Source: an uncultured Prolixibacteraceae bacterium
GTDB taxonomy: Bacteria > Bacteroidota > Bacteroidia > Bacteroidales > Prolixibacteraceae
NCBI GenBank assembly: GCA_903865775.1
Contig: CAIPKZ010000198.1
Coordinates: 1-36,785 of the forward strand
Direction of reading: 5' to 3'
Length of the DNA stretch: 36,785 nucleotides
The notes under the pieces are model-generated. The model made no database searches, was not told where the DNA came from, and was given only the letters and a program-made list of their open reading frames with translations. The translations under genes and the position numbers were made by a program. This document shows, one piece after another, positions 1,675-34,175 of the stretch (within the stretch, counting starts at the first letter, position 1; every line of letters begins with the position of its first letter).

Positions 1675-1684
1675 ATATTTATAA

Positions 1685-3082: not shown

Positions 3083-3085
3083 ACA

Positions 3086-4981: not shown

Positions 4982-4992
4982 TACTTATCAAA

Positions 4993-7620: not shown

Positions 7621-7626
7621 AAACAT

Positions 7627-14200: not shown

Positions 14201-15415
14201 TTTATTGGAAGCATTCAGAAAATAATGCGTAAAAATTCCTTTGGATCTGTCAAGACAATTTAATCCGTCACCGTCAGTACCAATCCAGATTTTCTTATTT
14301 TCATCCTCTGCAAATGCAGTTACAATATTGCCAGAAAGGCAATTTCCTGTGCGAATAGTACTTGTATAAGTCTGGAATATGGCATCTTGATTCAAATTTG
14401 CGACACTGAACCCCAGACTACTGAAAAACGCCCAAAGATTATTTTGTCCATCCACAAAAATCTGCGATGTTTTATTGTTCAGGATCGAACCTTGAAAATC
14501 TTCGTTTTTCCTGATTTTTTGGAGTGAGAGGGTTTTAGGATTGATGCAATAAATTCCATCGCCATCAGTTGATGCCCAAATTCTTCCACTTTTATCTTCT
14601 GCTATTTTGGTCACCAAATTACCTTTGGTTTCAACTACATCTGTAATCTTTCGGTTGACAAGTTCATCAATACTATTTGCAAACTTTATTCCTTTATCGG
14701 TTGCAATCCAGATTTGACCAGCACTGCTTTTAAACAGATGGTAAACCTTATTTGCCCCAAGCATTTGAGTGCTGATGTTCCAAATATTTTGCCCTGACAG
14801 AGTAAAAATAAATATTCCTTTCCGGTCAGTTCCTGATAAAATGTATTCCATATCGGAAATTACAGTTGAATGAACAAACCCTCCTTTGTCAATTTCCTTT
14901 ATTCCAGTATTCATCCGCAGAAAACACTCATTATCTGTTTGGTATTTGTAAAAGAAGAAATGAGTATGGCAAAACAATTCTCCTTTTTCGTCTTTGAAAA
15001 AACCTAAAACTGATTCATTTAGTGCAAATAAAGTAGTATCGGCATACAACGGAATATGTTTAAATTCATTTTGATGGGTTCCATAAAGATCAGGTCCTTT
15101 AGTAGTTCCAATCCATAATTTTCCGGAATTATCCTGAAAAATTGCATTTACCTTTCCTTGTCGAATACTTTTGTTATCATCGGGATTATGAATGAAATTG
15201 AGGTAATCATTTCCATCAAATCGATTCAATCCGACATCCGATCCCATCCAAATAAAGCCTTTTTGATCCTGTAATAATACATTGCATGTTTTGTTAAAAG
15301 GCAGACCATTTTCAAAGGTTAGTTGACGGAAAGACAACTTTTCAAGTTGAGCCGAAGCAATCAATCCAATAATGAAGAATAAAATACCAAATACTATTTT
15401 TTTTAAATCAACCAT
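11282..15415 (-). CDS. Hybrid two-component system (HTCS) regulator: sensor, histidine kinase, receiver and AraC-type DNA-binding domains
   Basis: The product has 1377 residues from the chosen start. Order: signal peptide/anchor (MVDLKKIVFG, about 1-23), a periplasmic sensor of two-component-regulator propeller repeats (many IWIGT-type motifs, about 25-700), a Y_Y_Y domain (about 715-795), one membrane helix (about 800-825), then HisKA with His860 (NITHEFRTPL). These are followed by an HATPase_c domain (about 960-1080, GIGIP and GIGLYLTKEI motifs), a receiver with Asp1170 (SDVMMPELDG) and an AraC helix-turn-helix (about 1270-1377). Such regulators sense oligosaccharides in the periplasm and activate their own polysaccharide locus, so the convergent glycosidase operon is the likely target. 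An upstream start at 15493 is in frame but lies before a -7 promoter motif, so I chose 15415. Confidence 0.93.
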   Translation of the reverse strand: MVDLKKIVFGILFFIIGLIASAQLEKLSFRQLTFENGLPFNKTCNVLLQDQKGFIWMGSDVGLNRFDGNDYLNFIHNPDDNKSIRQGKVNAIFQDNSGKLWIGTTKGPDLYGTHQNEFKHIPLYADTTLFALNESVLGFFKDEKGELFCHTHFFFYKYQTDNECFLRMNTGIKEIDKGGFVHSTVISDMEYILSGTDRKGIFIFTLSGQNIWNISTQMLGANKVYHLFKSSAGQIWIATDKGIKFANSIDELVNRKITDVVETKGNLVTKIAEDKSGRIWASTDGDGIYCINPKTLSLQKIRKNEDFQGSILNNKTSQIFVDGQNNLWAFFSSLGFSVANLNQDAIFQTYTSTIRTGNCLSGNIVTAFAEDENKKIWIGTDGDGLNCLDRSKGIFTHYFLNASNKNSLSADVVLSLFIDSDKQLWIGTYQGGLCKFNKKDNQFIRYKSNENNNNSLSGNDVSAITEDNNGNLFVLTLSDGLNIINKASGKIQQIHEELNSKYQLSHNGGTSLLKDHLGNIWIGTFFGLNYLNSGTRVITKFFNQDNDTLSLSSNTIDCLFKDSKNRLWIGTPNGLNLLDEKTQIFKRYTTKNGLPDNQIYSIAEDDEGNLWLGTNRWLSRFNPTTLQVKNFGENYNLPNRILSPRSALKSTNGELFFGGTQGFTVFTADKLSSSTFIPQLFITDLKVFDNSVLPGEKINNYVILERDICCSDLVKFHHTENSFSFTFSALDYANTSKVDYYYKMDGFDQNWRKADYRNRSASYTNLDAGNYTFKVKLVSGLNDKASSPVELRVEILPPWWRTWWAFLLYFIVIGGLLTFYLNITISRIKLQRKLFFEKHEREKELEINRIKENFYTNITHEFRTPLTLIIGPLEHLTEKYKTDNFFSDQVHVIKRNANRLLLLINELLDFRKIEARSMHLNVSEENIVDFFAQIARSFEAHAEIHHIEFSIDPPQHEIKVWFDKNKLEKVFYNILSNAFKYTPDGGNIQCRIRLSGQQHVSIEVEDSGIGIPENELIQIFRKYFTAENAVEQYSTGIGLYLTKEIVEMHKGEISARNNPERGTCFDVRLKLGNGHYALTELEYSSSDFLIPSKDSIAPTDEELKEEENTAIQSDDQGNDKSIILVVEDNDEVRAFIKTELNSKYEVIEAANGKRGLEMAYECIPDLIISDVMMPELDGISLCFQLKNNPLTSHIPIILLTALSDIENRIEGLDMGADSYITKPFHPRHLSVRVSKLLELRKILQEKYKIQVGQEQKGFDYQPHELEKLSVDELFMQRIVAIVENHLSDSDFELDDFCNQMGMKYLQLYRKVKAITNLSLKQFILTLRMKTAEKLLETGKFTISEVAFDVGFSSPTYFSETFKKYFGITPTEYMKRLK

Positions 15416-15469
15416 TTCAATGTGCACTAACAAGATGACGTTCCAGCCTTTCTCAGGGATTATTAGCGC

Positions 15470-15477
15470 CAAAGTTA
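15470..15477 (-). promoter_or_regulatory. Predicted -7 promoter element of the HTCS gene
   Basis: On the minus strand the sequence is TAACTTTG, which fits the Bacteroidota -7 consensus TAnnTTTG. A TTGG about 22 nt upstream could serve as the -33 element. The implied transcription start leaves a leader of roughly 45-50 nt before the ATG at 15415 and excludes the longer in-frame start. Confidence 0.5.
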
Positions 15478-15537
15478 AATTTATTTCCGCCAATCATTAC
15501 CAACTATTGTGCTTTGGATGTCTCGAATATGAGATAA

Positions 15538-16175: not shown

Positions 16176-16433
16176 ATGGGAACAAAGGAAAAGCTGATTG
16201 AACGGTTTAAAAGGCAACCCAAGGATTTTACTTTTAATGAACTAACACGTTTATTTCATGTACTTGGGTTTGAGGTCAGTCAAAAAGGGAAAACTTCCGG
16301 CTCCCGAATTGAGTTTGTCAACAGTGAAAAGGAACTCTCTTACGGTGCTCATAAACCACACCTTGACAGCGCAATAAAAAGTTATATCATGAAGCAAGTT
16401 TTGGAATTTCTAACTTCGAACAAGTTAATATAG
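16176..16433 (+). CDS. hicA: HicA-family toxin (mRNA interferase fold)
   Basis: The product is a small basic protein of 85 residues with the double-stranded-RNA-binding-like HicA fold. It has an N-terminal helix (KEKLIERFKRQPKDFTFNEL), the conserved GFE turn (about 31-33), the KGKTSGSRIEF strand (37-47) and an AHKPH segment (58-62). HicA toxins cleave mRNA and are neutralised by the partner HicB. In this variant the first strand reads SGSR where many HicA proteins carry the catalytic His, but His is present in the AHKPH segment. That pattern is seen in a recognised subgroup. It is followed 8 bp later by hicB. The ATG at 16176 is preceded by another in-frame-incompatible ATG at 16172. Confidence 0.82.
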   Translation: MGTKEKLIERFKRQPKDFTFNELTRLFHVLGFEVSQKGKTSGSRIEFVNSEKELSYGAHKPHLDSAIKSYIMKQVLEFLTSNKLI

Positions 16434-16441
16434 ATCACATT

Positions 16442-16786
16442 ATGGGAACATTAAAATATAAAGGCTATTCAGGAACAGTAGAATATAGCGAAGAAGACAA
16501 CTGCCTGTTCGGCAAGGTAATCGGTATGAATAAAAACCTTATTTCCTACGAAGGCAAAACAGTGGAGGAATTGAAGGCTGATTTTGAGGCCGGGATTGAT
16601 TTATACCTTGAAAGTTGCAAAGAGCGAGGAGTACAACCTCAAAAACCATACAGCGGATCATTAAATATCCGGATTCCATCAGAGGTACACAGTCAATTAG
16701 CGCTAAAAGCTCAAATGACCGGACGATCAATCAATGCGATTATTAAAGATTTGATAACAAGTCAACAGGACCTGTTAAACGCATAA
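16442..16786 (+). CDS. hicB: HicB-family antitoxin with ribbon-helix-helix DNA-binding domain
   Basis: The product has 114 residues. Residues about 1-68 form the partial RNase-H-like HicB domain (YKGYSGTVEYSEEDNCLFGK, then a YEGKTVEELKADFE helix). Residues about 72-106 form an Arc/HicB-type ribbon-helix-helix (SLNIRIPSEVHSQLALKAQ). It should bind and inhibit HicA and repress the operon through the duplicated 9-mer upstream. The pair lies between two recombinase relics, consistent with cargo of a lost integrative element. Confidence 0.85.
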   Translation: MGTLKYKGYSGTVEYSEEDNCLFGKVIGMNKNLISYEGKTVEELKADFEAGIDLYLESCKERGVQPQKPYSGSLNIRIPSEVHSQLALKAQMTGRSINAIIKDLITSQQDLLNA

Positions 16787-16838: not shown

Positions 16839-17554
16839 TTGTCACAGTTTTTGTATCAACCCACTGGCAACACAACTTGTTCCGATTCCTCGGGATTGTT
16901 TGTTGCTTTTGAAGGTTTGATTTTAAAGGTAAAAGCAAAAACCAAAGTAAGAACCACATGGGAAATCTATACCACTATTACATCTGTACAAAGTGTAAGG
17001 GTGGACAACGTCACCCGATAAATGATGTACATGAAAGTATTGAAAACATACTATCAACCATTTCAATCTCAGCACAGACGGTCAATTTATATCGGAAGAT
17101 GTTAGAAAAACTGTTTGATAAGGAAGACTCAATGAGAAAAGATGAAATTACCAAGACTGAAAGGGAAATTGAAAAGATTCAGAGTCGTATTACGTCACTT
17201 CAAGATCAGTTCATGGATAAACAGATTGACCCTCAAGATTATCATTTGATGAAACAACGTGTTGAAAAAGACCTGGTAGGATTAAGTTGCAAATTGAAAG
17301 ACCTGAAAGACGATAAGTCTCCGTTCAAGGAATACATTAAACACACGGTTCCTATGCTGGAAAACCTGGTGTCATATTACAGGAAGTCGGACGGGAATAC
17401 CAAAAAGAAGATATTAAGTTGCATCTTTTCGAAAAAAATCGTTTTGGAGAAATCAAAAGTTGCAACCTACGAATTCACGACACCTATACAAGTTTTACTC
17501 AATGCCGGCAAGGTTTGCAGAGGGACAAAAAAAAAGACAAGAGCTCGAAAATGA
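16839..17554 (+). pseudogene. Truncated serine recombinase, C-terminal zinc-ribbon/coiled-coil fragment
   Basis: The catalytic resolvase domain is absent. The longest open part (16958-17554, 198 residues) begins inside the zinc ribbon (YHYYICTKCKGGQRHP). It continues through the long coiled coil typical of large serine integrases (about 70-125, KTEREIEKIQSRITSLQDQF) to a basic C-terminus. Upstream, in another frame from about 16839, a residual CSDS segment followed by GLFVA looks like the first half of the ribbon with its second Cys lost. This implies a frameshift before 16958. The fragment ends only 14 bp from tRNA-Asn, a common integration site. It is not expected to recombine DNA. Confidence 0.75.
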
Positions 17555-18886: not shown

Positions 18887-20323
18887 ATGAAACGACTCAA
18901 AATTAAGGAAATACTAAAAGGAGAATTAATAGGCCAACAGGTTGTTGTCAAAGGTTGGGTACGGACCAAACGGGGCAGTAAAAACGTCAATTTTATTGCC
19001 TTAAATGACGGATCGACCATCCATAACCTTCAGGTTGTTGCCGATGTTGAACGATTTGGTGAAGAATTATTGAAAGATATTAATACCAGTGCTGCACTGG
19101 GAATTACCGGCGAGCTGGTTGCTTCGCAGGGTAGCGGTCAGGTTGTTGAGTTAAATGCGACCGAAATTGTAATCTACGGAAAATCTGATCCGGATAAATA
19201 CCCCATCCAGCCCAAAAAACACAGCCTCGAATTTTTACGCGAGAATGCTCATCTGCGATTCCGTACGGCAACGTTCAGTGCAATTTTCCGGATTCGTCAT
19301 GCCATGGCATTTGCTATTCACAACTATTTCAACAACAAAGGATTTATTTATCTGCATACACCGATTGTTACCGGATCGGATGCCGAAGGTGCCGGACAAA
19401 TGTTCCGTGTGACCACGCTCGATGCCAAAAATCCACCGCTGTTGGAAGACGGAACAATCGATTATTCACAGGATTTCTTCGGAAAAGCAACCAACCTGAC
19501 GGTTTCAGGTCAGCTCGAAGGCGAACTTGGAGCAACTGCTTTGGGTGAAGTTTATACTTTCGGACCTACATTCCGGGCTGAAAATTCGAATACTGCCCGT
19601 CATCTGGCCGAGTTCTGGATGATTGAGCCTGAAATGGCGTTTTACGAACTTCAGGACAACATGGATCTCGCTGAAGATTTCCTGAAAAGCCTGATAAAAG
19701 ATGCACTGGATAATTGCATGGACGACCTCGAATTCCTGAGCAAACGACTTCAGGAAGAAGAAAAAAACAAACCAATGGACGAACGTTCAATGGAGTTGAT
19801 TGAAAAACTTCGTTTTGTTCAGGAGAACGACTTTATCCGTTTGCCTTATACCGAGGCAATCGAAATTCTGTTGAACTCGAATCACTATAAAAAGAAAAAA
19901 TTCCAATACCCGGTAGACTGGGGCACTGATTTACAGAGCGAACACGAACGTTATCTGGTTGAAAAGCATTTCAAAAAGCCGGTTATCCTAATCAACTACC
20001 CGAAAGACATCAAGGCGTTTTACATGAAACAGAATGCCGATGGCAAAACAGTTGCTGCTATGGATGTTTTGTTTCCGGGAATCGGTGAAATCATTGGTGG
20101 TTCGCAACGCGAAGAAGATTACGACAAACTGGTCCGGCGAATGGAAGAAATGAATGTTCCGGTTCATGAAATGGATTGGTACCTCGATACCCGCCGTTTC
20201 GGAACGGTTCCTCATGCAGGATTTGGTCTTGGCTTCGAACGATTGCTTCTTTTCGTAACCGGAATGGGCAACATCCGCGACGTGATCGCTTTTCCACGAA
20301 CTCCAAAAAATGCAGAGTTTTAG
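18887..20323 (+). CDS. asnS: Asparaginyl-tRNA synthetase
   Basis: The product has 478 residues, the normal length for bacterial AsnRS. The N-terminal OB-fold anticodon-binding domain (about 1-105) contains [22 protein letters not shown]. The class II catalytic core follows, with motif 2 around [21 protein letters not shown]'s first part (about 229-245) and motif 3 [15 protein letters not shown] (about 444-458). It attaches asparagine to tRNA-Asn using ATP, so direct asparaginylation operates here. The AsnRS-type sequence, together with the nearby tRNA-Asn, leaves little doubt. A strong hairpin follows the stop codon. Confidence 0.97.
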
Positions 20324-20360
20324 AAAATCAAATTTTAATTGAGATCTGAACAATAACCAG

Positions 20361-20396
20361 GAAGGCCTGAAAATCAATTGCTGATTTCAGGCCTTC
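20361..20396. terminator. Strong hairpin terminator between asnS and the convergent small gene
   Basis: GAAGGCCTGAAAATCA (20361-20376) pairs with TGATTTCAGGCCTTC (20382-20396), a stem of about 15 bp with one bulged A and a 5-nt loop. It lies between convergent genes and could act in both directions. The following T-rich stretch on the plus strand is weak. Confidence 0.8.
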
Positions 20397-20416
20397 TTGA
20401 TTAATTTATCCTAATC

Positions 20417-20701
20417 TTACTTCCATGGACTGTTGCCATTGCCGTTTCCATTACCATTGCTATTACCGTTGCCATTGCCATTGTCATCATGATGTTCTCT
20501 ATGATGTTCTCCATGATGTTCTCCATGTACGCTTGAGGATTCCGGCCTGTCTGCCTTAGCTGGATTACTTAATAAAATCATCATAGTTGCTGCTGAAGCT
20601 GCAATATACCCGGTTCTTCTGATTGCATCTTTGCGTGAAATCTTCTTCTCTCCAAAACTGACAATTTCCTTCTTTGCGATTTCTTCCATCTTGTTGTTCA
20701 T
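20417..20701 (-). CDS. Small exported protein P1 with conserved leader and His/Asn/Gly-rich tail (candidate modified-peptide precursor)
   Basis: The product has 94 residues. Residues 1-45 match the second small protein at 23732-23953 at 37 positions, including KKISRKDAI (19-27) and TGYIAASAATMMILLS (30-45). The basic segment before the hydrophobic run resembles a Tat-like signal (SRKDAIR). PAKA at about 47-50 looks like a signal-peptidase I site, leaving a mature tail of about 44 residues. The tail has GEHH/REHH repeats (metal-binding in appearance), an NG-repeat tract and a C-terminal SPWK. The start at 20701 is fixed by alignment to the paralogue. I do not recognise a named family. Its divergent neighbours, a PqqD-HPr-kinase fusion and a nucleotidyltransferase, suggest it may be a substrate for them, which is inference. 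Confidence 0.72.
   Translation of the reverse strand: MNNKMEEIAKKEIVSFGEKKISRKDAIRRTGYIAASAATMMILLSNPAKADRPESSSVHGEHHGEHHREHHDDNGNGNGNSNGNGNGNGNSPWK
20432..20527 (-). repeat. In-frame short tandem repeats in P1 tail
   Basis: From 20432 to 20482 the gene has a 6-bp repeat encoding Asn-Gly. From 20489 to 20527 it has three copies of a 12-bp unit (ATGATGTTCTCC on the plus strand) encoding Gly/Arg-Glu-His-His. All unit lengths are multiples of three, so slippage would change tail length without a frameshift. Confidence 0.8.
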
Positions 20702-21219
20702 TTTGTTTCTATTTATTGATAAAAAATTTAAATATTCTGTTATTTGATGTATATCAAAGTGTTATATAACTTTCTCCAGTTTAATAATGAGCGGCGAATG
20801 AATCAAAAGAATTAGATTTTGATTCTATTCGTACCCAAAGATGTTAACATTTGTTCAGATAACTGCAACCGAACAGGTTCTAAAAAAAAGCAATTACCAA
20901 ACCATGCTTTCTGATGATTAAACAGCTAATTCTGAAGAGTAAAACATTAATAGTGGCAAAGAATGTCCCACTTTTATGTCTGAAATTCACCCGTAATTTT
21001 TCAATTTTTTCCCCTCAGTATTTAAGCCATCAGAAGAAGCTGAATGTTTTGATAAAGTAAGCGTTGTGAAATAAGACTATCAATAGGTAATTTCCGTACC
21101 ATGGAAAGAACATTGAAAGAGGATTTTCATCGATTATGAATGAAGATTTTTTACAAATAGTCCTATCTTTAGACCATCACTTAACCATAGTTTCTACTTT
21201 TGAACCAAACGAATAGAAA
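20702..21219. promoter_or_regulatory. Divergent intergenic region with motifs shared with the region at 30.6 kb
   Basis: There is no gene in these 518 bases. Near the P1 start is the symmetric TTTGAT-N4-ATCAAA at 20743-20758. Further on, the plus strand carries CCCACTTTT (20967-20975), ATTTTTCAATTTT (20996-21008) and CAATAGGTAATTTCCGTACC (21081-21100). All three recur with one or a few changes upstream of the BspA-like gene at 30631-30716. The region separates minus-strand P1 from the plus-strand kinase operon, so the motifs may control either or both. Confidence 0.55.
21195..21202 (+). promoter_or_regulatory. Predicted -7 promoter element of the PqqD-HPr kinase operon
   Basis: TACTTTTG fits the -7 consensus 17 nt before the ATG, with a TTTAG 22 nt upstream as a weak -33 candidate (21168-21172). 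The implied leader is very short. Confidence 0.45.
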
Positions 21220-22365
21220 ATGCCATCCATTCCAATTCTAACAAAGAAAATAGGCCAGTCTTATTTGGTCTGGTTTCAAAACAGCAATTTATACCTTCAG
21301 CTGGAAGAGCCGGCCTGGTTCGTTCTCCGGCGAACCAGACAGCGATATAAATGTGAAACAATTGCCAAAGAATTCGCCGTCCGGTACGGAGCAACTTCAG
21401 AAGATAGCCTCCGGTTTGTTGAAGATATTCGTCTGAAAAGTAAAGAAATGAATCAGCCGACCTCTGTTCAAAACAAAGCTTCTGAAATCCCGGCTGATCT
21501 GAATAACCGTTCATTTACTCCTTATGCCATTCACCACTACCAGTTGGGCGATCGGTTGATTTCATTTTCATACGAAACCCCAACTTTCGAATATTACATT
21601 CACCCGTTAATCTGTCACCTTGAAGTAACTGATGAACAGGTAGGATTGCCTCTTTTTGAATTGTTTGCCTGGCAGGATTCCATCGTATTCCGGTTCAACG
21701 GCGATGTGAAGGGTGTCTGGAATCCTGACGAAACCAATTTTGTAAAAGGATCAATTTTTATGTCACTGATTAATGTGATGTACCAGAAAACCGATGATGA
21801 TTGGCTAATGACAGTTCATGCATCGGCGATCACCAACGGAAAGAAAACCATCCTTTTCTCTGCTGCTCCCGGAAATGGTAAAACAACTATTGCAGCACTC
21901 CTTCAGGCCAAAGGGTACCAGCTGATTTCTGATGATTTTGTTCCAATCGACCGCAAATTGTTGAAGGCATATCCTTTTCCAATTGCCATGTCGGTCAAAG
22001 AAGGTTCGATGGATGTGCTGGTATCACTTTTTCCGGAATTGGGACAAAAACCACTGAACTATATTTCGCCAGAGAAAAGCGTTCGATATTTGGCTTCCAG
22101 TGAAAATCCTGACTTTACGAAAAATATATTTCCGGCTCAGGAATTCATTTTTGTAAAATACGACCAATCGATTGATTTTGTCATGGAAAAATTGGATCCG
22201 TTACAAGCGATCAGATTGCTGCTCGACCAGACCTGGGTAACACCTTCAAGAGGCAATCCGGCCATCCTGTTTGATCTGATTTTACAGAAATCATTTTATC
22301 AGCTGAGCTACTCCAACAATAAGAAAGCGCTGGATGCGATAACCAATCTGTTCGAAAATGACTAA
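21220..22365 (+). CDS. PqqD-like domain fused to HPr-kinase-like (HprK-related) kinase
   Basis: The product has 381 residues. Residues about 5-75 have the PqqD/RRE-like pattern (LYLQLEEPAWFVLRR, then CETIAKEFAVRYG), the small winged fold that binds leader peptides in modified-peptide pathways. Residues about 100-381 resemble HPr kinase/phosphorylase: His200 in VHASAI, Walker A SAAPGNGKTT (214-223) and the Asp pair in LISDDFVPID (235-244). Related stand-alone PqqD plus HprK-type proteins occur in lasso-peptide and other peptide-tailoring clusters, where the kinase phosphorylates the peptide. Here the two are one chain. The gene overlaps the nucleotidyltransferase gene by 8 bp and is flanked by two small proteins sharing a leader. 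The peptide substrate is inferred. Membership in the kinase family is well supported, the PqqD part less so. Confidence 0.78.
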   Translation: MPSIPILTKKIGQSYLVWFQNSNLYLQLEEPAWFVLRRTRQRYKCETIAKEFAVRYGATSEDSLRFVEDIRLKSKEMNQPTSVQNKASEIPADLNNRSFTPYAIHHYQLGDRLISFSYETPTFEYYIHPLICHLEVTDEQVGLPLFELFAWQDSIVFRFNGDVKGVWNPDETNFVKGSIFMSLINVMYQKTDDDWLMTVHASAITNGKKTILFSAAPGNGKTTIAALLQAKGYQLISDDFVPIDRKLLKAYPFPIAMSVKEGSMDVLVSLFPELGQKPLNYISPEKSVRYLASSENPDFTKNIFPAQEFIFVKYDQSIDFVMEKLDPLQAIRLLLDQTWVTPSRGNPAILFDLILQKSFYQLSYSNNKKALDAITNLFEND

Positions 22366-23485
22366 CAAGGAACTCTTTTATTTTACAGGAAAATGCCTGA
22401 CACTCGACGAACATCCCGGCTTCAGGCACGAAATAATTGAAAGCTGCCAGGCAGACCGGATCGATTGGGAGCAATTTGTGTTTCTGTGCAGCAACCATCT
22501 TATCCTTCCTGCAATTTACCTGAAATTCAAAACCCATCAAATCCTCGAATATTTGCCTGAGGATTTGTCGGAACATTTAAAAGACATTTATGAATTAAAT
22601 GTCACCCGAAACGATCTGATTCTAAAACAGATTCAGCAAATTGTCAAGGTTTTGAACGAGAGCAATATCCATCCTGTATTTTTGAAAGGTTCAGGCAATT
22701 TGCTGGATGGGGTTTATTCGGAAATTGGGGAACGGATTTTGGGAGATATCGATTTTCTCGTGCCCGAAAAAGATTATCTGCTCTCTGCAAAACTTATGGA
22801 AGATGCCGGTTATTTAAAGACCGGTACTATTCAGATCGGTATCGATATTGCCACTATGAAGCATTATCCGCGTTTAATGCATCCTGAATTTGTTGCTACG
22901 ATTGAAATTCACCGGATACCAGTACCCGAAAATTACCTGAAAAGATATAATTCCACAATAATTGATCAGGAGAAAATGGCCGTTGAATCGCTTCCGGGAT
23001 GCTTTGTTCTCTCCGGGAAACACAAAATCATTCACAACTTCATACACAGTCAGTTAAGTAATAAAAGTCATGAATACGGAATAGTATCTTTTCGGGATAT
23101 CTATGATTTGTACCTTTTTTCAAAACGATTTGAGCTAAAAGAAACTCTGCCGCATATTCAAAACAAACAAATGGCTATTGCCTATTTTGCTTTTGCAGAT
23201 ACCGTATTCGGGCTATCCGGAAACTTCTATCCTTCAGGCAACCTTTCCTCCTGGTTTCTTTTGAAAAAGCACACCTTTAACCTGAATTCAGGTAAGTTCT
23301 ATCGTCTCCACCGGTCATTTATTTTTTTGCGCTGGCAAATAGTTTCCAAGTACTTTGGACAAATTACAGAAGCTTTCTATTCAAAAAAAATCAGGCAATC
23401 ACTGTTCAGGCGTATAGGTAACCGCCATTGGTACAAGACCCATCTGGATTGGTATAAAGGATTCTTCACCCAAAAACACAATTGA
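22358..23485 (+). CDS. Nucleotidyltransferase family protein (NTP_transf_5-like)
   Basis: The product has 375 residues. It contains the polymerase-beta-type nucleotidyltransferase motif: Lys110-Gly111-Ser112 in VFLKGSGNLL, then GDIDFLVP with Asp130 and Asp132 as probable metal ligands. The preceding helical region (IDWEQFVFLCSNHLILPAIY) is typical of the uncharacterised nucleotidyltransferases found next to HprK-related kinases in peptide-modification and exopolysaccharide/PEP-CTERM-type clusters. It may transfer a nucleotide or another phosphate-linked group to a substrate made by the upstream kinase. It overlaps that kinase gene by 8 bp, so the two are probably translated together. A terminator follows. 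Confidence 0.8.
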   Translation: MTNKELFYFTGKCLTLDEHPGFRHEIIESCQADRIDWEQFVFLCSNHLILPAIYLKFKTHQILEYLPEDLSEHLKDIYELNVTRNDLILKQIQQIVKVLNESNIHPVFLKGSGNLLDGVYSEIGERILGDIDFLVPEKDYLLSAKLMEDAGYLKTGTIQIGIDIATMKHYPRLMHPEFVATIEIHRIPVPENYLKRYNSTIIDQEKMAVESLPGCFVLSGKHKIIHNFIHSQLSNKSHEYGIVSFRDIYDLYLFSKRFELKETLPHIQNKQMAIAYFAFADTVFGLSGNFYPSGNLSSWFLLKKHTFNLNSGKFYRLHRSFIFLRWQIVSKYFGQITEAFYSKKIRQSLFRRIGNRHWYKTHLDWYKGFFTQKHN

Positions 23486-23509
23486 ATTTCAAAAATAATT
23501 GAAGCAAAA

Positions 23510-23539
23510 AAAACGGGCAGCCCGCAGGATACCCGTTTT
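23510..23539 (+). terminator. Terminator after the kinase/nucleotidyltransferase operon
   Basis: AAAACGGG (23510-23517) pairs with CCCGTTTT (23532-23539), 25 bp after the nucleotidyltransferase stop. A-rich and T-rich flanks extend the stem. Confidence 0.7.
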
Positions 23540-23731
23540 ACAACAGCACAGGAGTTGATTCCGGCACTGGTTTTCCACCCTTAAATACTAACTTATTTTC
23601 TTCCTTATAAACAAATCATTTTTCCTAACTGAGTTTTTTCTCCGGTAGTTAAATGTTCGACTACGACCTGACTGCTTGCCAAATACGTAAAGCATTTCGC
23701 TTCAGGCTTTCTATTATATTCTGAATCTCTA

Positions 23732-23953
23732 TTATTTCCAGATACCACTACCGCCACGATCTCCGTCTTTCTTTTCAGGTGGAGGGGCACAGCGCGATGT
23801 GTTCGCCTGACTTGATTTACTCAACAGAATCATCATAGTTGCCGCTGAGGCTGCAATGTAACCAGTTCGTTTAATGGCATCTTTCCGGGAAATCTTTTTC
23901 GTATCGAAATTCTCAATTTCCTTCTTCGCGATTTCTACTAGTTTATTTTCCAT
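23732..23953 (-). CDS. Small exported protein P2 with the same leader as P1 and a different tail (candidate modified-peptide precursor)
   Basis: The product has 73 residues. The N-terminal 45 residues share KKISRKDAIKRTGYIAASAA and the following TMMILLS with P1. SSQA at about 47-50 resembles a signal-peptidase site. The predicted mature part is only about 23 residues (NTSRCAPPPEKKDGDRGGSG, then IWK), with one Cys and a C-terminal Trp-Lys as in P1. The gene starts 33 bp after the stop of the large BspA-like gene on the same strand, with no evident terminator between them, so it is probably co-transcribed. It converges on the kinase/nucleotidyltransferase operon. I know no named family; the precursor role is inferred from leader conservation and neighbours. 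Confidence 0.72.
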   Translation of the reverse strand: MENKLVEIAKKEIENFDTKKISRKDAIKRTGYIAASAATMMILLSKSSQANTSRCAPPPEKKDGDRGGSGIWK

Positions 23954-23986
23954 ATCAATTTATATTTAATGGTTTGTATGCTTAAT

Positions 23987-26900
23987 CTACTCTTTTACTG
24001 GTATTTTGAATCGTTGCAACTTCCCTTTATCATTCACTGATAACATATAGATGGCAGTTTTTATATTCGGGGTACGAACAACATTTAAGTTTACTTCTTC
24101 CAGTGTTTTAACCAGAATCACTCTTCCCTGAACATCGTAAAGTGTTGCGATGGCCTGATTGCTCACTTGGCCATTGATCCGGATTTCAATATTCCGGAAT
24201 GCATAGGCACTCAGGTTATCAGCATTGTTATCTATCAATCCTGTACTCAGGCTCGAAGTATGAAGCAGGAACCGGTCTGAACTGCTTGAATTGGCTTCAA
24301 TCTCAGTCCGATAATCACTGATGGAAAGATCGGTAAATGTACCACTCAGCTTATCCTCCAGAATGACCTGACAATCAGCAGGTAAGTCAATGAATTTGGA
24401 TGAAAATACCAATTCGCCGCCAGTTTTGCTTTCGACACCTATAGGTATAATCATGGTGCTGAATTCATTGGCTGGTAAAGCCTGAATGGTAAACGGGATT
24501 CCATTGTCTTCGACCAAACGCGAATAAATGACCAGATCGGCACTTCCGCGAAGCAAACCTGCGTCATAAGTAACGTCCAATCCTTTGGTCATCCGGTTGT
24601 TAAAGGCGATAAGGGTTGAGCTTGTTTGCCCGCTAACTGAAGCTTCCAGCTTTATAGCTGGCCATACACTGTTGCCTGATTTTAATGCCAAGCCAGGATT
24701 GTGAAGCTGCATGGCCTGAGTATAACCTACAGAGGTCGCAGTCAAAGCGGAATTCATTTTTACCATAAATGCCTGTCCTTGCTGAACATCAAATGCAGCG
24801 TCTGAACCAAAACCGGGAGTATTTGAAATGATGGTGTAAATTCCCCAAGTACCATTGTTTTCATCAGGTTGGTCCCAAATATAGATGGCACCATAGGAAG
24901 GATCCAGATTCGATGCATTGGTTGCCAAAAAATTGGAGGAACTGCTGCTGCCTGTATTGATTCCGATGGCCGAAGTATAGGGGTTCCCAACACAATTCCA
25001 AAGTCCGGAAGCCATTCCTGTTGTAGATAAGGTTCCTGCATTCAATGTGCCGGAAAAAGTAACCGCACTGTTGGCATTGGTTCGCATTGAGAATCCTTTG
25101 CCCGTTTCCAGATTACCAAGAGTTGAATTGGTAAAATAATTGTTCCAGTCGTTGAGATCCGGATCATAATCCATCATACCTCTTGCCCCAACATCATCCG
25201 TTGCAACATTCCCATTCGAAGTCAGGAAATTCGCAATACTCTGTCCTGCAACCGGTGATGAAACAATGTGCCACCGATCAGTCGTCATATAGCGCTGAAC
25301 CGAAGCAGAACCTGCCCCGGAAACTATGCCGGAAATGATCAATGAACCTGTACCCGTTGCATTGGATGCTATGGTAAAGCTTGTACCACCTGCAATATCA
25401 ATGTTATTGCACGATGCATTCGTTAATACTCCAATAATCGGTTGGGTAACTCCAGAAGGAATCTTAATATTGGTGGCTGAACTAGGCACACCACCGCACC
25501 AGTTTGATTCAGTATTCCAGTCACTTGTAATACCCAACCATTGACCGGGTGATGCTATGGTTAAGCTAATTGCATTCGAAGTAGCAGTTGGGCTATTAAC
25601 ACAACCAAGGGTTGAAGTCATTATAACAGTAATGCTTCCGGCAATTGTTCCATTATCAGTGTATGTTTCACTATTCAAACCAACTGGTGTTGAGCCTTTA
25701 TACCATTGGTACTCCGGAGTTCCTCCATTTATTGGTGTAGCGGTATAAGTAACGGGAGTTCCTGAACAGATCGCTCCTGAAGGAACTGCTGCAATACTCA
25801 CACTGGCAGGCAGATTAGAATTGACATCAAAGTTGGTGATTTTGTCTTCAAAGTTAGAGGTACAACCATTAACTTCGATAGATGTAATCTCATAGGTATA
25901 GCTTCCCGGTTCATAAGCTTCCCCAATGAAAGTTGCAACTCCGTCAACATTAGATTCTACTTCCTTTGAACCTGTAGTTGTCACACCGTCTTTTGTTATT
26001 TTAAAGTGGATAATGTTCGTTACCTCTATTAAGAGACCGAATGCACTGAAATATATATCTTCACCGGAACAGGTTGAATTAACTATTGGCATATTCAGTG
26101 TCGGTGAAGGTTTTTCGATAATAACAGCAGGTCCAGTCATGTTAGTTGTACCACAAGCATTGGTTCCCTTAACAGTAAATGTTCCAGTTGGTTGATTTCC
26201 AAAATCAATGGCAGCGCCTGTACCTGCAACTGTACCTGGAGGGTCTATTGCAATATTATCCATATACAGAGTATAGTTAACCCCAACCTCAGAACCTGCC
26301 AGACCAACCGGATATCCTTCAGAAACAGAGCAATAAGTACCGCCACCGGTTACGTCAAAAGCTGTTGGAAGGGCATTGGTTGTGACAACATGTGTAGTTG
26401 TTGCAGGACCATTGCACCCTTCAGCACTGGCTGTTATGGTGGTTGCTCCACTCCAGCCTGCAGCGTAGGTTACCGCACCAGTTGATGAATTGATCGTATT
26501 GCCACCTGTTAAACTTGCACCATCCAGACTATAAACAATAGCTGCTGAATTATGGCTTGCTGTTGTCGTGGTGGTTACAGTACCTTCACCCTGACAACGG
26601 ATTGAAGTTGCGGGTGAAAACGCTGCTATGGTTACCGTTGGGGTTACAGTTATTGTTACCGGTTCGGTGTAAGATGAATAACACTTTACTCCATTTAATG
26701 CAGATACTGTCCTTCTCTGGTAACTCGTTGTTGCTGTCAGTGATGGTGGTGAATATCCTGCTGAAGTAGCTTCGGCAATCGTAACATAACTTCCGCTAGC
26801 ATTGGTCTGCCATTCATAACTGATTGTACCTGAACCGGTGCCCGCTGCTGTTGAGCTGAGTGGAGACGGAACAGTTCCATAGCATATCGTTTGATTTGTT

Positions 26901-29900
26901 GCAATCGTTCCCGCCATAACTGAGGTCTGTACAGTAATTGTTACCGGAGTGGTGTACGATGAAAAACAGTTTACCCCGTTTAATGCAGATACCGTCCTTC
27001 TTTGGTAGCTCGTTGTTGCTGTCAGTGATGGTGGTGAATATCCTGCTGAAGTAGCATCGGCAATCGTAACATAACTTCCGCTGGCATTAGTCTGCCATTC
27101 ATAACTGATTGTACCTGAACCAGTGCCTGCTTCCATTGAGGTGAGCGGAGACGGAACAGTTCCAATGCAAATTGTTTGATTTGTTGCAATCGTTCCTGCC
27201 GTAACTAATGCCTGTACAGTAATTGTTACCGGTGTGGTGTACGATGAAAAACAGTTTATCCCGTTTAATACAGATACCGTCCTTCTTTGGTAGCTCTTTG
27301 TTGCTGTCAGTGATGGAGGTGAATAGCCTGCTGAAGTAGCATCTGCAATCGTAACATAACTCCCGCTGGCATTGTTCTGCCATTCATAACTGATTGTACC
27401 TGAACCGGTGCCTGCTTCCGTTGAGGTGAGTGGAGACGGAACAGTTCCAAAGCAAATAGTTTGATTTGCTGCAATCGCTCCTACCGTAACTGAGGTCTGT
27501 ACAGTAATTGTTACTGGTTCGGTTGGGACCGACTCCCAGCTAAATCCATCTAAAGTAGAAACAGTTATCCGGTGAAAATTAGTCGTTTGAGTCAAAGCTT
27601 CCGGAGCAAATGTTGCATTGGTAGCACCGGTTGATGACCAAACTATACCATCAGTTGAATACTCCCAGCGGTAACTGACTGTTGCACCCGTCATAACTAA
27701 ACCAGGACTTGTGGATGTAATCGTTGAAGGCGTTGTGTTATAACAAATGGTCTGACTGGCAGCAATGGAACCTGCTGTGGGTATCTCTAAAATAGTTGTA
27801 AAATCTTTCCATTGGTTGGCTGCGGCATAAAGAACTTTAGTGCCATAAGGAACAAACAATTTACAGGTAGTTTTATTGACATTTAGAAAAACACCCACGG
27901 AAGGAATTAAATTGACAGGAGTTGCCGGATATGCAAAGATGGATGTCAAACCAGTAGAGTTATTAAAACTATATTCACCAATAAAGGTGACGGTTGATGG
28001 AATGGAAACTTTTGATAAGACCGTACAGTAGGAAAAAGCACTACTCCCAATAGATGTAACCGATTCCGGAAGGATAACCGATGCCAATTTGGTACAATAG
28101 TAAAAAGCCGCTGCTCCAACGGATGTTAACGATGAAGGTGTAGAAAAGGTAACCGATGTTAAACCGGAACAGTAGGCAAAAGCATTTGCTCCCAGAGATT
28201 TTACTGACGAAGGGATATTAACAGAGGTCAATCCGGTACAAGAAGAAAAAGCCGATTGTCCAATGGATGTCACCGAAGAAGGAATATTAACAGAGGTCAA
28301 TCCGTAACATTGATAAAAAGCAGCTTCTTCAATGGATGTTACCGATGAAGGGATAATAACCGAGGTCAATCCGGTACATTGATAAAAAGCATGAATTGGA
28401 ATAGAGGTAAGCGATGAAGGAATGGTAACCGAGGTTAAACCGGAACAATAAATAAAAGCCCCTGTTCCCATGGATGTTAATGATGAAGGTGCAGAAAAGT
28501 TAACCGATGTTAAACCGGTACATTCTTGAAAAGCATAATGTTCTATAGACGTAACCGATGTCGGAATAGTAACCGAGGTCAATTTGGTACATTGATAAAA
28601 AGCCTGATATCCAATGGATGTTACCGATGATGGAATAGTAATATCGGATAATCCACTGCAACGATGAAAAGCGTGGATATCAATTGACGTGGCGGTTGAT
28701 GGTAATATTATGGATGTTAAACTTGCTTTACTATTAAAAGCATACTGAGGAACTGTATTTGCCGGATATGTTACAGAACCAGTAGTAGTTCCACTTGTTC
28801 CGGTATAATCAGCAATTGTTGCATTACTGATATCTATTTCTGCCAGCATCGGCATATCATCGCGCATCGTCTTAAAATCGCGCGCATCAATGTTGCCGGT
28901 AATAGTAAGCCTGGTTATCTGGCTTCGTTGTGCGGCGTTTAATGCCGCAAACAAACCTCCTGCTGTATTATTGACTGTCACTAAAACTCCCAACTGGGTT
29001 ATAGATATGGTTTGAGTTGGTACACCTGCTGCAGAAACCGTAACTTTTGCAAATCGTGGTGAATAAGAGGTATTTTCTTCGGCAGTTAAAACAAGCGTGG
29101 CATTTGTGCTCCCGCTTGCAGGGCTTACTGTTAACCAGCTCTGGTTGGAAAGGGCAGTCCAGGGGAGCGCCGTGGTAAGTCCTATGCTGGCAGAACTGCC
29201 GCCGGCACTTTCAATCCTTGCCTGAGTTGCTGAAACCTTAAATTCCGCCATTTCTTCTCGATTGGTAAAATCTTCCCACTGGTCGGCAGCAGCATAAAGA
29301 GCCGATATCCCATAAGGAACATGCAAAACACAGGTATTTGTGTGTACACCACTAAAAACATTTGGGGAAGAACTTAAATTGACAGGTGGCTCCAACTGTG
29401 CATAGAAGGAATTTAAACCGGTACAGTTACCAAAAGCATAAGTTTTTATAGATGTAACCGCTGGCGGAATAGTAATCGAAGTCAACATGGTACAGCCATA
29501 AAAAGAATAACCTTCAATTGAAGTTACCGAAGAAGGGATATTAATCGATGTCAAGCTGGTACAGCTCTGAAAGACAGAAGATTCAATGGATGTTAACGAT
29601 GAAGGTTCCGAAAAGTTAACCGATTCCAACCCGGTACAATTTATAAAAGAATTATAACCAATTGAAGTTACCGAAGAAGGGATATTTATCGAGGTCAAGC
29701 TGGCACAGCCACTAAAAGCCGAATATCCAATGGATGTTAACAATGATGTCGCAGAAAAGTCAACCGATTTTAAAGCAATACAGGCAATAAATGCATTATT
29801 TTCAATGGTTGTTAACGATGAAGGTGCAGAAAAATTAACCGATTTTAATTTGGAGCAGGCATAAAAAACAGAGGCTCCTACAGTCGTAACCGATGACGGA

Positions 29901-30532
29901 ATGGTAACCGAGGTCAATCCTTGACATTGATAAAAAGCCCCATCTCCAATGGATGTTAACGATGAAGGTGCAGCGAAATTAACCGATGTTAAACTAGTAC
30001 AGTAAATAAATGCATAAGTTCCTATAAACGTAACCAATGACGGAATGGTAACCGAGGTCAAACTGGAACATTGATAAAAAGCCGAATTTCCAATGGATGT
30101 TAACGATGAAGTTGCAGGAAAGTTAACCGAGGTTAAACCGGAACAGTAGGCAAAGACACTTATTCCAAGGGATGTTGCCGATGAAGGAATAATTACAGAT
30201 TTCAGACTTGTTTTACTTGTAAAAGCATTGCTAGGAACTTCGTTAAATGGATACGTACCAGAAGAAACAGTTCCCTCAGTACCACTATAAGCAGCAATCG
30301 AAACCCCACTGATATCTATTACAGCCAATACAGGCATGTTATCGCGCATGGTTTTAAAATCGCGCGCATCAATGGTGCCGGTAATGGTAAGGTTGGTCAC
30401 TATTGCCAGTTCTCCGGCAATCGAACTTGAAGATAATGTACCTGCGGTGGTGATATTGACAGTTCTGGAAACTTGTGCATTTAGCATCACCGTAAAACAC
30501 AAGCTTAAAATGAATAGGAAGAATTTTTTCAT
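23987..30532 (-). CDS. Giant BspA-like leucine-rich-repeat surface protein with BACON, Ig-like repeats and probable T9SS sorting domain
   Basis: The product has 2181 residues. Order: signal peptide (1-19), a header with IDARDFKTMRDNMP, LRR block I of about 23-residue LRR_5 repeats (SLTSIGNSAFYQCSSLTSVT type, to about 415) and a BACON domain (about 431-514, SWLTVSPASGS). A second header with the same IDARDFKTMRDDMP signature and LRR block II follow (about 515-915). Then come PKD/Ig-like repeats (about 930-1660, three of them 95 residues long and nearly the same), a region opening GQWLGITSDWNTESNWCGG (about 1662) and a C-terminal sorting-like domain (about 2100-2181). BspA-type proteins are adhesins binding host or matrix proteins or other cells. 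P2 lies immediately downstream. The ligand is unknown. Confidence 0.88.
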   Translation of the reverse strand: MKKFFLFILSLCFTVMLNAQVSRTVNITTAGTLSSSSIAGELAIVTNLTITGTIDARDFKTMRDNMPVLAVIDISGVSIAAYSGTEGTVSSGTYPFNEVPSNAFTSKTSLKSVIIPSSATSLGISVFAYCSGLTSVNFPATSSLTSIGNSAFYQCSSLTSVTIPSLVTFIGTYAFIYCTSLTSVNFAAPSSLTSIGDGAFYQCQGLTSVTIPSSVTTVGASVFYACSKLKSVNFSAPSSLTTIENNAFIACIALKSVDFSATSLLTSIGYSAFSGCASLTSINIPSSVTSIGYNSFINCTGLESVNFSEPSSLTSIESSVFQSCTSLTSINIPSSVTSIEGYSFYGCTMLTSITIPPAVTSIKTYAFGNCTGLNSFYAQLEPPVNLSSSPNVFSGVHTNTCVLHVPYGISALYAAADQWEDFTNREEMAEFKVSATQARIESAGGSSASIGLTTALPWTALSNQSWLTVSPASGSTNATLVLTAEENTSYSPRFAKVTVSAAGVPTQTISITQLGVLVTVNNTAGGLFAALNAAQRSQITRLTITGNIDARDFKTMRDDMPMLAEIDISNATIADYTGTSGTTTGSVTYPANTVPQYAFNSKASLTSIILPSTATSIDIHAFHRCSGLSDITIPSSVTSIGYQAFYQCTKLTSVTIPTSVTSIEHYAFQECTGLTSVNFSAPSSLTSMGTGAFIYCSGLTSVTIPSSLTSIPIHAFYQCTGLTSVIIPSSVTSIEEAAFYQCYGLTSVNIPSSVTSIGQSAFSSCTGLTSVNIPSSVKSLGANAFAYCSGLTSVTFSTPSSLTSVGAAAFYYCTKLASVILPESVTSIGSSAFSYCTVLSKVSIPSTVTFIGEYSFNNSTGLTSIFAYPATPVNLIPSVGVFLNVNKTTCKLFVPYGTKVLYAAANQWKDFTTILEIPTAGSIAASQTICYNTTPSTITSTSPGLVMTGATVSYRWEYSTDGIVWSSTGATNATFAPEALTQTTNFHRITVSTLDGFSWESVPTEPVTITVQTSVTVGAIAANQTICFGTVPSPLTSTEAGTGSGTISYEWQNNASGSYVTIADATSAGYSPPSLTATKSYQRRTVSVLNGINCFSSYTTPVTITVQALVTAGTIATNQTICIGTVPSPLTSMEAGTGSGTISYEWQTNASGSYVTIADATSAGYSPPSLTATTSYQRRTVSALNGVNCFSSYTTPVTITVQTSVMAGTIATNQTICYGTVPSPLSSTAAGTGSGTISYEWQTNASGSYVTIAEATSAGYSPPSLTATTSYQRRTVSALNGVKCYSSYTEPVTITVTPTVTIAAFSPATSIRCQGEGTVTTTTTASHNSAAIVYSLDGASLTGGNTINSSTGAVTYAAGWSGATTITASAEGCNGPATTTHVVTTNALPTAFDVTGGGTYCSVSEGYPVGLAGSEVGVNYTLYMDNIAIDPPGTVAGTGAAIDFGNQPTGTFTVKGTNACGTTNMTGPAVIIEKPSPTLNMPIVNSTCSGEDIYFSAFGLLIEVTNIIHFKITKDGVTTTGSKEVESNVDGVATFIGEAYEPGSYTYEITSIEVNGCTSNFEDKITNFDVNSNLPASVSIAAVPSGAICSGTPVTYTATPINGGTPEYQWYKGSTPVGLNSETYTDNGTIAGSITVIMTSTLGCVNSPTATSNAISLTIASPGQWLGITSDWNTESNWCGGVPSSATNIKIPSGVTQPIIGVLTNASCNNIDIAGGTSFTIASNATGTGSLIISGIVSGAGSASVQRYMTTDRWHIVSSPVAGQSIANFLTSNGNVATDDVGARGMMDYDPDLNDWNNYFTNSTLGNLETGKGFSMRTNANSAVTFSGTLNAGTLSTTGMASGLWNCVGNPYTSAIGINTGSSSSSNFLATNASNLDPSYGAIYIWDQPDENNGTWGIYTIISNTPGFGSDAAFDVQQGQAFMVKMNSALTATSVGYTQAMQLHNPGLALKSGNSVWPAIKLEASVSGQTSSTLIAFNNRMTKGLDVTYDAGLLRGSADLVIYSRLVEDNGIPFTIQALPANEFSTMIIPIGVESKTGGELVFSSKFIDLPADCQVILEDKLSGTFTDLSISDYRTEIEANSSSSDRFLLHTSSLSTGLIDNNADNLSAYAFRNIEIRINGQVSNQAIATLYDVQGRVILVKTLEEVNLNVVRTPNIKTAIYMLSVNDKGKLQRFKIPVKE
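26646..27500 (-). repeat. Three tandem 285-bp repeats inside the BspA-like gene
   Basis: The marker ACAGTWATTGTTACCGG recurs at 26646, 26931, 27216 and, with one change, 27501, that is every 285 bp exactly. Each unit encodes a 95-residue Ig/PKD-like domain containing YEWQTNASGSYVTIADATSA. The near identity points to recent duplication or gene conversion and potential copy-number change. Confidence 0.85.
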
Positions 30533-32483: not shown

Positions 32484-32574
32484 TCCTTTCAGAAATTGCA
32501 AAAGAGGAGATTGGAAAGCATAATCTATTTACTTCATGTTTTTTTTTCTATCCTGAAACCTGATACCCCAATTA

Positions 32575-32590
32575 TTTGTTTATAAACAAA
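32575..32590. promoter_or_regulatory. Perfect 16-bp palindrome, operator candidate for DUF5723-like copies 2 and 3
   Basis: TTTGTTTATAAACAAA is its own reverse complement. It lies 101 bp upstream of copy 2 in an otherwise featureless 207-bp gap. Dimeric regulator binding is a reasonable guess. Confidence 0.5.
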
Positions 32591-32690
32591 AAAGAAAATA
32601 CCAAGATTTATCGTTATATTAATCCTGATCAAATGGAAAAATTTTTAATCCTAAAAGTTAAGGACAGTCAGATAAGCATAACCTGAAGAT

Positions 32691-34139: not shown

Positions 34140-34175
34140 AAGGTAAAGATCTATCAGTAAAGAAAACTTAGTTGT

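Follow-up and report, generated by a model that had tools for sequence, protein, structure and literature searches.

Small, Putatively Exported Peptides and a PqqD-Like Kinase Point to a Little-Known Modification System Linked to Type IX Secretion in Bacteroidota

Identification of the Peptide, Kinase, and Cargo Genes

Two small precursor peptides, P1 and P2, flank a kinase gene (K) and a nucleotidyltransferase gene (N) in a 36,785-nucleotide stretch of DNA from an uncultured Prolixibacteraceae bacterium (GenBank assembly GCA_903865775.1, contig CAIPKZ010000198.1, positions 1 to 36,785), hereafter called the window. The tiny, putatively exported peptides and the candidate leader-binding kinase, usually accompanied by a nucleotidyltransferase, point to a little-known modification system linked to the type IX secretion system (T9SS). 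Most relatives of these peptides are encoded directly behind genes for T9SS cargo of a single sorting-domain subtype, and the peptide leader and K occur in the same genomes. We put at about even chances the reading that this is a peptide-tailoring system whose products are modified by K and N, exported, and act with the cargo. The genes concerned are as follows.

20417 to 20701, minus strand: P1, precursor peptide of 94 residues (open frame), no T9SS gene upstream; leader 20552 to 20701, Gly/Asn/His-rich tail 20417 to 20551 (stop codon counted in)
21220 to 22365, plus strand: K, PqqD-like N-terminal domain fused to an HprK/PEPCK-fold kinase, assigned by family, fold, and motif
21220 to 21459, plus strand: predicted PqqD-like domain of K (about residues 1 to 80), placed by the predicted model and the matches of relatives
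22358 to 23485, plus strand: N, NTP_transf_5 (PF14907) nucleotidyltransferase-fold protein, overlapping K by 8 bases
23732 to 23953, minus strand: P2, precursor peptide of 73 residues (open frame); leader 23804 to 23953, tail NTSRCAPPPEKKDGDRGGSGIWK
23987 to 30532, minus strand: T9SS cargo of 2181 residues with BspA-type leucine-rich repeats and a BACON domain, 33 bp before P2 on the same strand
23990 to 24409, minus strand: C-terminal 140 residues of the cargo, peptide-linked sorting-domain subtype, sole match in the genome to the subtype profile A9

Conserved Leader and Serine-Containing Tails

An initial annotation, made from the sequence alone, had noted the likeness of P1 and P2, and alignment reproduced it: 37 of the 45 N-terminal residues are identical and both peptides end in Trp-Lys. 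It had also placed them correctly on either side of the enzyme pair, K and N lying on the plus strand between them with P1 divergent from K. Over the first 45 codons, 20 are identical, 17 differ synonymously, and 8 differ nonsynonymously. Most of the 25 codon differences (17) are thus silent, so that the leader is preserved at the protein level. A leader search of the window genome found only these two family members (third match at E = 1.06). NCBIfam and Pfam scans gave no meaningful match for either peptide, and a search for RNA families in 20300 to 24100 returned none.

The conserved leader was aligned across 109 distinct peptides, as in the precursors of ribosomally synthesized and post-translationally modified peptide (RiPP) systems. 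Tails of the T9SS-linked peptides are Ser/Pro-rich with a median of 11 residues. Short tails in Prolixibacteraceae read SPAPPPPW or QSPAPRPGW. In Flavobacteriaceae, where many loci are ordered cargo-peptide-K-N, the usual leader end is K(K/Q/E)AQA, after which comes a tail such as QSPEAPGTGF that is conserved between species. A second, P1-like tail type is long, often Gly/Asn/His-rich, and divergent from K. Serine is present in all 109 tails (104 of them unique, with 84 of the unique tails expected to contain it from composition), and a proline follows a serine within three residues in 77 of the 81 T9SS-linked tails. The claim that the tails diverge completely thus holds for P1 against P2 and fails across relatives, where T9SS-linked tails have common Ser-Pro features. 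Likewise, of the proposed conserved leader plus variable core, the leader stood; a hypervariable core was rejected for the T9SS-linked peptides, whose short Ser/Pro tails are conserved in Flavobacteriaceae.

The leader motif, R(K/R)EA(I/L)K followed by a hydrophobic run, also occurs at the starts of larger Bacteroidota proteins, which read NRKEAIKRTGLLLGG and similar. By sequence, the leader looks like the twin-arginine translocation (Tat) signal peptides of this phylum. A TatC gene was present in 12 of the 12 genomes tested.

Co-occurrence of Leader and Kinase

A family sample of 120 genomes was searched with leader (E ≤ 1e-4) and K (E ≤ 1e-15) profiles. Both were found in 42 genomes, the leader only in 3, K only in 4, and neither in 71 (Fisher P = 5e-24, an optimistic value because relatedness is ignored). 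One genome (G115) was scored leader-positive from a 40-residue fragment. The three genomes with a leader and no K were G047, G073, and G103. Two of these may reflect assembly gaps, since N stands at a contig start in G047 and G103 is 68% complete.

Across a phylum sample of 395 genomes, the 5 genomes with K (E ≤ 1e-20) were exactly those with small-frame leaders (E < 1e-5). This leader cut was picked after weak matches in larger frames had been seen: under the threshold fixed beforehand (E ≤ 0.01), 37 of the 395 genomes gave a leader match, and in the 32 without K no match was better than 8e-5 and all lay inside frames of at least 168 residues. Among 12 near-miss loci inspected, 11 from this sample and one from the genomes behind leader-less K loci, 11 gave frames with Tat-like starts and one gave no such frame. 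The leader as a general Bacteroidota signal was therefore rejected, the weak extra matches sitting in larger Tat-like proteins.

Named K loci (80 of 108 relatives analyzed) came from Prolixibacteraceae (Sunxiuqinia, Mariniphaga, Maribellus, Gaoshiqia) and Flavobacteriaceae (Polaribacter, Tenacibaculum, and others), so that two separate families of Bacteroidota have retained both K and the peptide. A leader lies within the flank of 53 of the 80 loci, in 33 of these at most 500 bp upstream on the strand of K. A pattern scan of the 27 leader-less loci for diverged leaders gave nothing convincing. The genomes behind 23 of these loci (22 genomes, several overlapping the family sample) were then searched, and 21 of the 22 carried a leader elsewhere at E ≤ 0.01, convincingly so in 19. 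Unconvincing matches were a 162-residue Tat-like frame (G529) and a 40-residue fragment (G516). In several genomes, the peptides are on contigs other than that of K.

These results support the pairing of the leader with the PqqD-kinase. The profile search proposed in the initial annotation did not find leaders widespread without the enzymes, as K is present in 42 of the 45 leader-bearing family genomes. The proposed tie to the enzyme pair held for K and more loosely for N, which is near K in 65 of the 80 loci. Overall, the first association of leader and PqqD-kinase survived and the freely varying core did not, while the cargo gene 33 bp from P2 had been overlooked.

Linkage to One Sorting-Domain Subtype of T9SS Cargo

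Sorting-domain genes lie directly in front of 81 of the 109 distinct peptides, with gaps of 4 to 323 bp (median 27). A further 21 peptides have no same-strand gene within 400 bp upstream, 4 stand behind another gene, and 3 are at contig edges. Training of the sorting-domain model used to label cargo genes drew on 21 of these same cargos. TIGR04183, a model independent of the peptide-linked profiles, was applied to 85 of the 88 distinct upstream C-termini, with three neighbors without a sorting domain deliberately kept; it matched 80 of the 85 at E ≤ 1e-3, and 42 of the 85 also matched the type C model NF033708. The tail of the window cargo falls just under the cut-offs (TIGR04183, 22.8 against 23; PF18962, 16.9 against 27). 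Among 10 cargos scanned of 57 listed, 9 had a T9SS tail; their other matches were Ig-like, G8, lamin-tail, or Calx-beta domains, or nothing known.

The association is strong, and it concerns a single sorting-domain subtype rather than T9SS genes at large. The window genome has 102 T9SS-domain matches (E ≤ 1e-3), approximately 2.4% of its genes by an estimated gene number. Profile A9 matched only the gene before P2, with no second match at E ≤ 1e-6. Three other genomes (G101, G092, and G073) each had a single A9 match, adjoining the peptide. G035, which belongs to the same genus as the window genome and has only a P1-type peptide, gave one weak partial match (6.5e-7), and G080 and G098, in which neither leader nor K was found, gave none. 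Peptide-linked domains were the source of profiles A8 and A9, the window, G101, G073, and G092 each contributing a sequence to A9, and the only informative point of the two profiles is the scarcity of other domains scoring nearby.

A linked-domain profile was also run against seven genomes, three of them from the Polaribacter and Tenacibaculum loci. It gave 250 matches, of which 47 were at E ≤ 1e-25 and the next at 6e-17. A peptide follows 30 of the 47 subtype-level domains, or 29 of 38 when G345 is left out. These genomes hold 31 peptides, 30 behind a subtype-level domain and one in tandem; with all 31 accounted for, the other 203 sorting-domain matches are without a peptide. In the window itself, three more proteins end in a T9SS tail that scores above cut-off, and none of them is followed by such a peptide.

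Predicted Folds of the Kinase and Nucleotidyltransferase

K matched HprK_rel_A (NCBIfam TIGR04352) at E = 1e-16 with 60.9 bits, far under the model cut-off of 200, and is therefore not a member of that family. Its predicted model (predicted local distance difference test, pLDDT, 90) opens with an N-terminal domain of three strands and three helices, followed by an HprK/PEPCK-type kinase. Three strands plus three helices is the pattern of the PqqD fold. Foldseek with this model returned PEPCK (1e-6) and HprK (3tqf, 8e-4). All relatives compared keep His200, Lys221, Asp238, and Asp239 (28 of 28, and 79 of 79 named ones). The predicted model assigns K to the HprK/PEPCK kinase fold, and the four residues form the His-Lys-Asp-Asp motif known from lasso-tailoring kinases.

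PF05402 was the commonest family match of K N-terminal domains, at a weak level (13 of 40 at E ≤ 0.1, best 1.3e-4). A profile of these domains searched against the PDB matched TfuB1 best (E = 9e-4). The PqqD-like nature of this domain, first proposed from the window sequence, is thus supported by the relatives and the predicted fold, even though the window K gives no sequence match of its own.

N exceeded the PF14907 gathering cut-off of 31.2 with 109.2 bits (E = 3.2e-31). Its predicted model (pLDDT 92) has a nucleotidyltransferase fold with modest best matches, MenAT1 at 2e-4 and JHP933 at 6e-4. N lies close to K in most of the named loci. Of the 15 loci without a nearby N, two stop right after K and 13 have more than 4 kb of sequence behind it; these 13 make N the less constant partner locally. 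A peptide or cargo gene is nearby in these 13, for example in L222, L229, and L232.

An array of complete and broken N-like nucleotidyltransferase copies lies within 20 kb in another genome (G116:C57, L076), with no K found in the stretch.

Proposed Mechanism and Alternatives

In the tailoring system that we propose, the leader of approximately 50 residues would do double duty, being bound by the PqqD-like domain of K and directing Tat-type export. In the cytoplasm, K would bind the leader and phosphorylate a serine of the core. N may then cap the phosphate with a nucleotide, or aid hexose addition, as seems to be the case for its lasso counterpart PsmN. The precursor would be exported by Tat, which would suit a substrate completed in the cytoplasm, and cleaved by signal peptidase after Ala-X-Ala. 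The modified peptide of approximately 10 residues would thus arrive in the periplasm, where it may work with the co-encoded T9SS cargo bearing the special sorting-domain subtype. A single K/N pair may serve several cargo-peptide pairs in trans.

Several observations weigh against this tailoring system. N was not detected within at least 4 kb behind K in 13 of the 80 loci. The leaders carry mostly Arg-Lys, and in one case Arg-Glu, rather than twin arginine; Arg-Lys is also found in Tat-like starts of larger proteins (L114, L116, L117, L120). The 21 peptides without a same-strand upstream gene, and the long P1-type tails, do not stand beside T9SS genes. In G345, one of the 9 subtype-level sorting domains is followed by a peptide; behind the other 8 there is no leader-like frame. 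The PqqD call is weak by sequence, and the window K alone has no PF05402 match in a Pfam scan. G073 (L084), approximately 100% complete, carries a cargo-peptide pair of the linked subtype and neither K nor N, and is a real, unexplained exception. In four genomes (G068, G088, G097, and G111), K is present and the profile found no leader. The conserved Flavobacteriaceae tail, finally, argues against a diversified natural product.

That last point also bears on the best-placed alternative, a new class of ribosomal natural product (signal or antimicrobial) that is modified by K and N and released, its position beside T9SS genes reflecting shared expression only. A PqqD-like domain plus tailoring enzymes would be expected of such a class, the kinase and nucleotidyltransferase of pseudomycoidin offer a precedent as far as the excerpted source describes them, and P1-type peptides occur alone, with no T9SS gene. 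We nevertheless consider it unlikely, given a link specific to one sorting-domain subtype, a core conserved between Flavobacteriaceae species, and the genes around K. Clustering of 758 neighboring genes (at least 110 residues, at most 7 kb from K, cargo sorting tails trimmed) in the 80 loci recovered K in 80, N in 64, and cargo in 41. Other clusters of at least 10 loci were Mur ligase (41), TrkH (31), TrkA (30), peptidase M28 (17), RadC, DAHP synthase, and others. All of these non-system clusters are confined to loci L202 and up, mostly but not wholly Flavobacteriaceae, and the recurrent neighbors, including the TrkH/TrkA potassium-transport pair, look like synteny. Small mixed-family clusters comprised a tetratricopeptide repeat-histidine kinase (7) and an integrase (5). 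Besides TrkH/TrkA, no dedicated transporter family recurs near K in the 80 loci.

Alternatively, the peptides could be unmodified small Tat-exported accessories of the cargo, with K and N acting elsewhere (for example on cargo or a lipid) and merely co-inherited. The Tat-like leader and the G073 pair without K and N would fit this. It sits poorly with the co-occurrence of peptide and K even across different contigs, with the PqqD-like fold predicted in K, and with the serine kept in every tail, and we regard it as rather improbable.

Remnants of a lasso peptide cluster that lost its cyclase and protease would account for the lasso-type tailoring parts (kinase and nucleotidyltransferase, as excerpts of the literature describe them) and for the TfuB1 match of the PqqD-like domain, yet this origin is highly improbable: no lasso cyclase (C) or leader protease (B2) was found in the 21 Pfam-scanned window proteins at the cut-offs applied, the rest of the genome being unsearched, or among 10 representatives of recurrent K-neighbor clusters (families named for 10 of 22 clusters listed), which are housekeeping-like, and K and the peptide are maintained in two separate families. 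A lasso cluster was rejected as regards the window and these named neighbors.

Within the tailoring system, a more specific role can be suggested, although we hold it doubtful. The tailored peptide could be a dedicated surface partner, either as a PorU amine acceptor replacing lipopolysaccharide or as a release or anchor signal for the cargo. Excerpts of a T9SS review describe PorU as attaching cargo to short peptides or to the seryl-sugar of A-lipopolysaccharide (PMC10202324), which would make an acceptor role possible. If so, the subtype would be the recognition site of the peptide, and peptide, kinase, nucleotidyltransferase, and subtype together would form a second, genetically encoded T9SS attachment route.

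Other Features of the Window

A polysaccharide-use cluster (73 to 11219) encodes glycoside hydrolases of families GH3, GH43 (three), and GH44 and a raffinose-synthase-type protein; several of its proteins carry carbohydrate-binding modules (CBM6/CBM35) and three have T9SS tails. A hybrid two-component regulator (11282 to 15493) adjoins it. At 16176 to 16786 is a probable HicAB toxin-antitoxin pair, HicB being identified by Pfam and HicA, which has no Pfam match, being our assumption. The frame at 16958 to 17554, also without a Pfam match, we take to be a possible serine recombinase remnant. Three DUF5723 proteins (Pfam) follow in succession at 30999 to 35681, and a cluster resembling this trio by eye is near K in four Prolixibacteraceae loci.

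Comparison with Known Systems

The lasso tailoring kinases PsmK, PadeK, and ThcoK are HprK-like, and in lasso systems a PqqD-like protein (B1) binds the leader. HprK_rel_A (TIGR04352), the NCBIfam family that the kinase half of K matches best, though under cut-off, works with a separate PqqD partner. K, unlike lasso clusters, unites a PqqD-like domain and a kinase in one protein, and no cyclase or protease is found among the scanned window proteins. Further differences from lasso clusters are the Tat-like leader, the Ser/Pro core, and the position of most precursors behind T9SS cargo genes. As excerpted, one review describes lasso precursor kinases with a conserved His-Lys-Asp-Asp that act on a precursor serine, with the kinase PsmK of pseudomycoidin beside the nucleotidyltransferase PsmN and with PadeK and ThcoK in paeninodin-type lasso clusters (PMC9266682). 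K has the His-Lys-Asp-Asp of PsmK and of PadeK/ThcoK and, as in the excerpted account of pseudomycoidin, a nucleotidyltransferase alongside.

The proteins upstream of the peptides are like T9SS type A cargo (TIGR04183/PF18962) and differ as a subtype beside peptide genes. The larger Bacteroidota Tat-signal proteins, which we take to be gluconate dehydrogenase subunit 3-like, have the same leader motif; the precursors differ from them in having no folded domain, the signal being most of the protein. The sole comparable cargo-partner linkage that we met, in excerpts of the T9SS review, is type B cargo, which clusters with PorP/SprF, a beta-barrel partner (PMC10202324). As excerpted, the same review treats how PorU picks released or anchored cargo as an open question (PMC10202324).

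We found no description of this system in the open-licence literature, and no paper joining type IX secretion with PqqD. Papers pairing type IX secretion and RiPPs included none on this system, judged by the beginnings of their abstracts, and a term search of a Bacteroidales RiPP survey found no mention of T9SS (PMC10352776). The tailoring chemistry has known precedent; the coupling to T9SS was not found in the open-licence literature. If the proposed tailoring system is correct, it joins PqqD-guided peptide tailoring with type IX secretion and adds a compact tailoring pair, a nucleotidyltransferase and a kinase fused to a PqqD-like domain. With its own peptide and enzymes, such a cargo subtype makes the PorU choice between release and anchoring testable in culturable Flavobacteriaceae such as Polaribacter.

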